Below, piece after piece: positions 35,537 to 39,377 of a DNA stretch of 64,000 nt; position 1 is the stretch's first letter; the number at the start of each line of letters is the position of its first letter. Below the pieces are notes generated by a model. It did no database searches, was not told the DNA's origin, and saw nothing but the letters and a program-made list of their open reading frames with translations. Origin of the DNA: Akkermansiaceae bacterium (GTDB lineage: Bacteria; Verrucomicrobiota; Verrucomicrobiia; Verrucomicrobiales; Akkermansiaceae); the NCBI GenBank assembly GCA_015061985.1, contig SUVN01000006.1, positions 1 through 64,000 of the forward strand. The letters run 5' to 3'. Made by a program: the position numbers and the translations under genes.

Positions 35537-36673
35537 ATGAAAGCAATTCTTGCACTCGAAAACGGAATTATCTTCGAAGGCACCTCATTCGGTGCCACCG
35601 GTACTGTCACCGGTGAACTCGCATTCAACACCGCCGTTGTAGGCTATCAGGAGCTCCTCACCGACCCCTCCTGGAAAGGACTTTTCCTTACCTATACCTA
35701 CACCCACATCGGCAGCTACGGCATCAATGAGGAGGACAACGAAAGCGACCGCCCACAGGCCGCCGCCGTCATTGCCACCGAGCTTTCCCGCCTGCACTCC
35801 AACTGGCGCTCCACGGAATCCCTGAGCGATTGGCTTGCACGCTACGGCGTTCCTGGCATTGAGGGGGTCGACACCCGCCGGCTCACCCTCATTATCCGCG
35901 AACAGGGTTCTCTGCGCGCCTGTCTCAGCACGGAGCTGAGTGCAGAGGAAGCCATTGCCGCCGCCAAGGCCGCCCCCACGGTGGTCGGCAGCGATTTGGC
36001 AAGCACCGTCTCCGCACCCGCCGCTTATCACTGGGACGGCGAATCCCGCGGCTGGAAGCTGCCGAACAAATCCCGAGGCGACCTTTCCTACTACACCGAG
36101 CTCCCCGCAGCCACCCGCAAGGCCGTGGTTCTGGATCTGGGCGTACAGCGCAGCGTGCTGGCCACCCTGCGCCGCGACGGCTTTGATGTGACCGTTGTAC
36201 CCGCTACCACATCTGCCGCTGATATTATGGCTCTGGGTGCCGACGGTCTCTTCCTTTCCCACGGCCCCGGCGACCCCGCCGCCCTCAGCGGCATTGCTGC
36301 AGAAGTAGCTCAACTCATCGGCAAACTGCCCATTTACGCCATGGGGCTGGGGCATCAGGTGCTGTCCATGGCACTGGGCTGCAAAACCGTGAAGCTTCCC
36401 TTCGGCCACCACGGCGGCAACTATGCCGTGCGCGACCTGCGCAACGATGCCGTCTCCATCACCACGCAGAACAACCTCTTTGCCGTGGATTCCGACTCCG
36501 TGACCGGTGATGCCGTCATCACCCACACCAACCTGAGCGACGGCACCGTGGCCGGCGTGGCAAGCAAGAGCGCACCCGCCGCAGGCGTGCAGTTCCTGCC
36601 TGTTCCCCCTCCCTCCGATGCTTCCCGCACCTTTGCGGAGTTCATCGACATGGTTGACACTTTCAAGAAATAA
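35537..36673 (+). CDS. carA: Carbamoyl-phosphate synthase small subunit, glutaminase triad apparently lost
   Basis: Full-length CarA homology (ALENGIIFEGTSFGATG, GVDTRRLTLIIREQGSLRA, KLPFGHHGGNYAVRD) but PIYAMGLGHQ replaces GICLGHQ. Confidence 0.9.
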   Translation: MKAILALENGIIFEGTSFGATGTVTGELAFNTAVVGYQELLTDPSWKGLFLTYTYTHIGSYGINEEDNESDRPQAAAVIATELSRLHSNWRSTESLSDWLARYGVPGIEGVDTRRLTLIIREQGSLRACLSTELSAEEAIAAAKAAPTVVGSDLASTVSAPAAYHWDGESRGWKLPNKSRGDLSYYTELPAATRKAVVLDLGVQRSVLATLRRDGFDVTVVPATTSAADIMALGADGLFLSHGPGDPAALSGIAAEVAQLIGKLPIYAMGLGHQVLSMALGCKTVKLPFGHHGGNYAVRDLRNDAVSITTQNNLFAVDSDSVTGDAVITHTNLSDGTVAGVASKSAPAAGVQFLPVPPPSDASRTFAEFIDMVDTFKK

Positions 36674-38047: not shown

Positions 38048-38135
38048 GCCATTTTTTCATTATGTAACAACTTAACCTTGCGTTAGCGAGAGCAATATGC
38101 TAGTCTGCGCTGTAAACAATTCTCTCCTCCGCATC

Positions 38136-39377
38136 ATGAGCAACACGCCGGAACCGCCTGCCGATATTGACTATTCTACCGTCACCGTACCCCAAAGCAA
38201 AAGGCGTTCATTTGCCAACATGCTCTTTCTGATGCTGGGATTCACCTTCTGCTCGTCCAGCATGATGGTGGGAGCCCAGCTGGGCAACGGCTTTGACCTC
38301 CCAAACTTTCTGCTGGTCATTCTGCTGGGAGGTCTTCTGCTGTCGGCCTACACGGGGATGCTGGGCTACATCGGCAGCCGCACGGGGTATTCTCTGGATT
38401 TACTCTGTCGCAGAGCCTTTGGACGTGTGGGCTCTTACCTGCCCTCCACCATCATTGTCATCACACAAATTGGCTGGTTCGGCGTGGTGCTGGGACTCTT
38501 TTCCGTGCCCACAGCAGAAGTGCTGCACATTAATCCCTGGTGGGTGGTCATCATCGGTGGTGTGCTGATGACCGCATCGTCCTACTACGGAGTCAAAGGG
38601 CTGATTATCATCAGCGCCATATCCGTACCGCTGGTCGTGCTGCTGGGCTGTTATTCCGTGGGAGCAGCCACCATAGCGGGCGGCGGTATCGTGGAAGTTT
38701 TCGCAAAAAAATCGGGTGGTCTTTCTTTCATGATTGGTATCGATCTGGTAGTTGCCTCCTTTGTGAGCGGCGGCACTACCACACCGAACTTCACACGCTA
38801 TTCCCGCACACCGCTGGGAGGCTTGATGGTGACGGTAGCGGCTTTCCTCTTCGGCAACTCTCTCATGTTCATCTTCGGGGCCGCAGGCGGTGCCTTTACC
38901 GGGAAGAATGATATCTTCTATGTCATGATTGCGCAGGGTCTGATTATTCCAGCTCTGTTCGTTCTCGGCACCAACACATGGACAACCAATGACAACTCAC
39001 TGTATTCCTGCGGTCTGGGTCTGGCCAACCTGACCCGCCGCAATCCGCGCCCGCTGATTCTCATCGCCGGTATCATCGGAACACTTGCCTCGCTCTGGCT
39101 GCGTGACAACTTTGTCAACTGGCTCATCTTCCTCTCAGCCATTCTGCCGCCCATCGGCATGGTGCTGATACTCGACTACTTTGTCCACCGCAAGCGCTAT
39201 CAGCCGAAAACACGTCCCTATCGCGGTGTCTTCATCGGCCCGGTACTTTCCGTCGGCGCCGGCGTAATAGCAGGCACCGTCCTGAAGGGGTACGGCATCA
39301 GCGCCATTAATGGCATGGTTGTTTCCTCCGTTGTGTATCTGCTCTGGTCCTATACCGCCAAGCTGAAGAAAGAATGA
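38136..39377 (+). CDS. CodB-like cytosine/purine permease (NCS1)
   Basis: Twelve-TM permease with GNGFDLPNFLLVILLGGLLL, GGTTTPNFTRYSRT, NDNSLYSCGLGLANL. Confidence 0.8.
   Translation: MSNTPEPPADIDYSTVTVPQSKRRSFANMLFLMLGFTFCSSSMMVGAQLGNGFDLPNFLLVILLGGLLLSAYTGMLGYIGSRTGYSLDLLCRRAFGRVGSYLPSTIIVITQIGWFGVVLGLFSVPTAEVLHINPWWVVIIGGVLMTASSYYGVKGLIIISAISVPLVVLLGCYSVGAATIAGGGIVEVFAKKSGGLSFMIGIDLVVASFVSGGTTTPNFTRYSRTPLGGLMVTVAAFLFGNSLMFIFGAAGGAFTGKNDIFYVMIAQGLIIPALFVLGTNTWTTNDNSLYSCGLGLANLTRRNPRPLILIAGIIGTLASLWLRDNFVNWLIFLSAILPPIGMVLILDYFVHRKRYQPKTRPYRGVFIGPVLSVGAGVIAGTVLKGYGISAINGMVVSSVVYLLWSYTAKLKKE

Follow-up and report, generated by a model that had tools for sequence, protein, structure and literature searches.

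A clade of Akkermansia carries a carbamoyl-phosphate synthase small subunit that has lost its glutaminase triad, probably within an ammonia-using enzyme

The window analysed here is a stretch of 64,000 nucleotides at the start of contig SUVN01000006.1 of an Akkermansiaceae bacterium (assembly GCA_015061985.1). It contains an intact open reading frame for carA, which encodes the small subunit of carbamoyl-phosphate synthase (CPS; 378 amino acids). Upstream lie pgk and a SPOUT methyltransferase gene and downstream lies purA, pgk and purA being identified from their translations. Directly after purA, and thus close to carA, positions 38097–39377 encode a cytosine/purine permease-type transporter (PF02133). 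The features of carA are as follows.

35537–36673, + strand: carA, CPS small subunit without glutaminase catalytic residues (PF00988 and PF00117; TIGR01368; AlphaFold2 model)
35537–35986, + strand: N-terminal CPSase domain, about residues 1–150, CarB-docking and conserved (PF00988 match, 5–129)
36125–36601, + strand: class-I GATase-like domain, inactive (PF00117 match)
36344–36346, + strand: GGG, Gly270 at the position of the nucleophile Cys269 (alignment)
36473–36478, + strand: Asn313-Leu314 replacing His312-Gly313 of the glutamine pocket (alignment)
36596–36598, + strand: CTG, Leu354 at the position of His353, with the Glu355 position inside a two-residue deletion just after it (alignment)

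An earlier note on this DNA had claimed that CarA lost its whole glutaminase triad, with a GGG codon at 36344 in place of that for Cys269. Alignment with E. coli CarA confirmed both points, with Gly270 opposite Cys269, and showed that the loss extends further. The nucleophile elbow reads AMGLGHQ instead of GICLGHQ, and the stretch around His353 and Glu355 reads VQFLP--VPPPSDAS instead of VQYHPEAAPGPKDA, two residues shorter than in relatives. In E. coli numbering, Cys269 is replaced by Gly, His353 by Leu and Glu355 by a gap, and in the glutamine pocket His312 is replaced by Asn and Gly313 by Leu; Ser47, Gln273 and Asn311 are retained. Although the protein scores 364.8 bits against TIGR01368, the model for the glutamine-hydrolysing small subunit of CPS II (curated cut-off 307.35), it has Gly, Leu and a gap where that class has its Cys-His-Glu triad. 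With CPS I it shares an inactive GATase-like domain without the catalytic Cys, but CPS I is one fused polypeptide, whereas here carA lies in the window and carB separately on another contig of the genome (G000:C14).

The note had also suggested a comparison with CarA of close relatives. Proteins with 98, 92 and 87% identity to window CarA, from separate assemblies (goat colon, roe deer rectum and goat cecum, the goat colon genome being the closest), carry identical changes. Pairwise dN/dS among window CarA and these three relatives was 0.07–0.11 (0.08–0.10 for the GATase half), inside the range of about 0.02–0.16 seen for canonical CarA pairs, and native carA is thus under purifying selection. 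The AlphaFold2 model of window CarA (pLDDT 92.3) matched E. coli CarA (1a9x_B) with a TM score of 0.90 at 39% identity, and human CPS1 with TM scores of 0.82–0.83. Structures of E. coli CarA are 1a9x and, for the C269S mutant, 1c30; those of human CPS1 are 5dot and 5dou. Conservation was scored within the clade described below over 155 columns that are invariant in canonical CarAs: 41 of 65 such columns in the N-terminal domain were still at least 90% conserved, compared with 26 of 88 in the GATase domain, and the worst-degraded columns mainly surround the glutamine pocket. CarA appears to be retained for a structural or allosteric reason.

We surveyed the genus by searching 77 genomes, then fetching loci and aligning them. 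Within one Akkermansia clade, all 37 native CarAs that could be read (36 full-length or near full-length proteins and one fragment, from G190) lacked the nucleophile, compared with none of 62 canonical CarAs of the family. The clade has 38 members, including G216, which was placed by CarB as its assembly has no CarA. Among the 36 longer proteins the nucleophile position holds Gly in 33 and Ser in three, while His353 survives in three and Glu355 in ten. A sheep rectum metagenome-assembled genome (MAG), RGIG6293, shows a third replacement, Ala (GIALGAQ; L264:6001–7137). CarA is canonical in the remaining 39 species of the genus and in every other genus of the family that was aligned. In a CarA tree built without the motif columns, all 36 proteins fell on one branch (support 98/95), corresponding to a single change. 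A tree of CarB, a separate gene, likewise united the 32 CarBs from the clade (support 99), so shared decay does not account for the grouping. Loss of the triad therefore arose once, in the ancestor of the clade. We found no described bacterial CarA without the triad in the open-licence literature searched.

According to record titles, which are the sole source for the host pattern, the 29 titled clade loci come mostly from the hindgut of goat, sheep, cattle, buffalo, yak, roe deer and water deer; one is from horse faeces and a few titles name no host (S28M, S33M, S38M, S3M and SIG71). Named clade members are MAGs, mostly from the ruminant hindgut. Among the canonical species are A. glycaniphila, one MAG from horse faeces and MAGs with the label 'Lapin', a word that points to rabbit. 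The trait may be linked to an ammonia-rich habitat.

The window genome has one intact CarB (1,069 amino acids), which aligns over its full length with E. coli CarB, and comparison of clade CarBs revealed no striking clade-specific change that might compensate for the altered CarA. Both carbamoyltransferase-family genes, assigned as PyrB and ArgF by their number and family, were present in 76 of 77 genomes (G214 shows one), and glutamate dehydrogenase scored above its family cut-off in 73 of 77. GOGAT differed between the two groups: of 39 canonical species, 37 have its large-subunit gene gltB and two lack it, compared with 11 and 27 of the 38 clade members. TGA codons flagged as in-frame in the gltB genes of G198, G220 and G202 proved to be ordinary C-terminal stops. 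The near-complete genomes of ∼3 Mb, taken as A. muciniphila-like (G027-like, L109–L119), have one carA and two carB genes, with a carB-carA pair that adjoins glnN and gltB.

A second, canonical carA (carA2) was found in 12 clade members (G124, G128, G136, G184, G198, G200, G201, G202, G203, G209, G210 and G220) and in none of the canonical Akkermansia species among the 77 genomes. On contigs that allow a reading, it belongs to an operon glnN(GSIII)-purF-carA2-nadE-carB2-dapF, with dapF named from its translation and the purF match below the curated cut-off of its family; in G128 a long overlapping frame blurs the reading of the operon, but carA2 and carB2 were nonetheless found. CarA2 is ∼40–45% identical to native CarA over the matched parts. 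Its relatives, at 65–71% identity, are in Verrucomicrobiota of other classes. A Bacteroidota origin of the operon was considered at first, but these are the nearest relatives found in a search of the phylum Verrucomicrobiota. In the tree, carA2 of G128 separates from the ten further copies sampled, which suggests that the operon was acquired at least twice. In the same phylum search, many genomes of one genus of another class (g67 of family f17) gave no CarA match at all; these bacteria may be auxotrophic for arginine and pyrimidines or may rely on a different CPS.

In 23 clade members, neither carA2, carB2 nor gltB was found. Fourteen of these genomes are 92–99% complete, so incompleteness alone is unlikely to explain the missing second copy, although metagenome assemblies are prone to break at conserved segments that have been transferred. 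A CPS fed by ammonia alone is plausible for these 23 members, which make the strongest case for it.

For the window organism itself the situation is probably different. The earlier note had implied that a second carA is absent, and a search of the assembly (∼90% complete) indeed found none. However, a 7,687-base contig of this genome (G000:C9, L195) carries a sigma-54 activator gene and beside it, at 1286–7687, gltB and a divergent glnN (GSIII) that is truncated by the contig end. This stretch is 99.3–99.4% identical to its counterparts in G203 and G204, whereas the window genome and G203 are only 86% identical at the carA locus and 90% at the carB locus, which points to a recent transfer of the nitrogen locus between species. 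In G204 and G203 the contigs continue from glnN into purF, and another G203 contig carries purF-carA2-nadE-carB2 with a canonical triad. The contig break thus falls inside glnN of the operon that holds the canonical copy in relatives. The gene carA2 is probably present in the window organism yet unassembled, in which case native CarAB would be the ammonia-using one of two CPS enzymes, beside a glutamine-using CarA2-CarB2.

In E. coli CPS, the glutaminase delivers ammonia through a tunnel to CarB. E. coli CPS can also use ammonia directly, albeit at very high concentrations (PMC6245113). In the clade, free NH3 would reach CarB either directly or through the old tunnel or a side entrance like the one suggested for human CPS1, and there attack carboxyphosphate; the dead CarA may be kept for assembly, allostery or sealing of the tunnel. 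Two precedents are known. A tunnel-blocked E. coli CPS retains ammonia activity, according to work cited in PMC4655335. In tetrapod CPS1, where the nucleophile Cys has become Ser, ammonia is the sole nitrogen donor, and a side entrance for it has been proposed (PMC4655335; PMC7657897). The simplest reading would be that the clade has this arrangement split over two bacterial subunits. Given that no other CPS was found in 23 clade members, an ammonia-dependent CPS is the best reading, and we consider it likely that CarA is a glutaminase-dead, structurally required subunit of such an enzyme. Counted against this are the very high ammonia need of E. coli CPS and the lack of any recognisable compensating change in CarB. 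The earlier note had drawn the same parallel with animal CPS1: for the gene and the clade this remains the best-supported view, whereas sole dependence of the window organism on ammonia is unsupported in light of its truncated glnN and the G203 operon.

Could CarA instead be a decaying pseudogene or the product of an assembly error? Many conserved columns are indeed lost in its GATase half, but intact reading frames recur in separate assemblies, dN/dS is about 0.1, the predicted structure keeps the fold and the triad loss is clade-wide. On these grounds we rejected decay and sequencing error, which have almost no probability left. General decay of GATases was likewise ruled out: PyrG and HisH, two other GATases of the window genome, retain their Cys and HPE, so the loss in CarA is not general in this genome. 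It is only marginally more probable, and still very improbable, that another residue took over glutamine hydrolysis. In ten clade members a Cys stands close to the nucleophile elbow, in the place formerly taken by His272 (GxGLGCQ); this Cys is absent from window CarA and most others, His353 and Glu355 are lost too, and the pocket columns vary freely.

A more serious alternative, though still an unlikely one, is that CarA2-CarB2 makes the carbamoyl phosphate, with native CarAB as a leftover or regulator, or with native CarB borrowing CarA2. The canonical pair in 12 clade members and the start of the carA2 locus in the window genome fit this idea. The 23 members without a second copy, however, retain PyrB and ArgF (G214 shows a single one), native carA is under purifying selection, and the low identity between CarA2 and native CarA makes cross-docking doubtful. 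In species that bear carA2, native CarAB might serve otherwise or be dispensable. With less confidence than for the ammonia-using enzyme itself, we favour a broader scenario in which a bacterial ammonia-only CPS evolved once, kept its glutaminase subunit as a scaffold and converged with CPS1; the clade would have diversified with this enzyme, most members would have lost GOGAT, and some would have regained a glutamine-dependent CPS at least twice, through a nitrogen operon from Verrucomicrobiota of another class.

Compared with known systems, window CarA shares with its E. coli counterpart the fold and the division into two subunits, its CarB being intact, but E. coli CarA has Cys269, His353, Glu355 and an intact pocket, whereas window CarA has lost all three residues and part of the pocket. 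Like vertebrate CPS I (human and frog CPS1), it keeps an inactive glutaminase-like domain without the nucleophile Cys, with ammonia here the presumed substrate. Unlike CPS1, a single mitochondrial chain that requires N-acetylglutamate and has Ser at the nucleophile position, it is encoded in bacteria by a gene apart from carB; the clade has Gly (33), Ser (3) or, in the one further MAG, Ala, has usually lost His and Glu as well, and has an independent origin. Free ammonia as the physiological nitrogen donor would be shared with bacterial single-domain NadE and other ammonia-using amidotransferases (PMC3376133), but in single-domain NadE the glutaminase subunit is wholly absent, whereas here a dead subunit is retained.

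The automatic label 'glutamine-hydrolyzing' would be misleading for such a CarA. In dozens of gut species, CPS is scored as glutamine-hydrolysing although it lacks the residues needed, which would introduce wrong reactions into metabolic models of the herbivore hindgut. The vertebrate urea cycle evolved in part through a switch of CPS from glutamine to ammonia, and an independent bacterial switch, with canonical sister species and regained copies, would allow it to be dissected.
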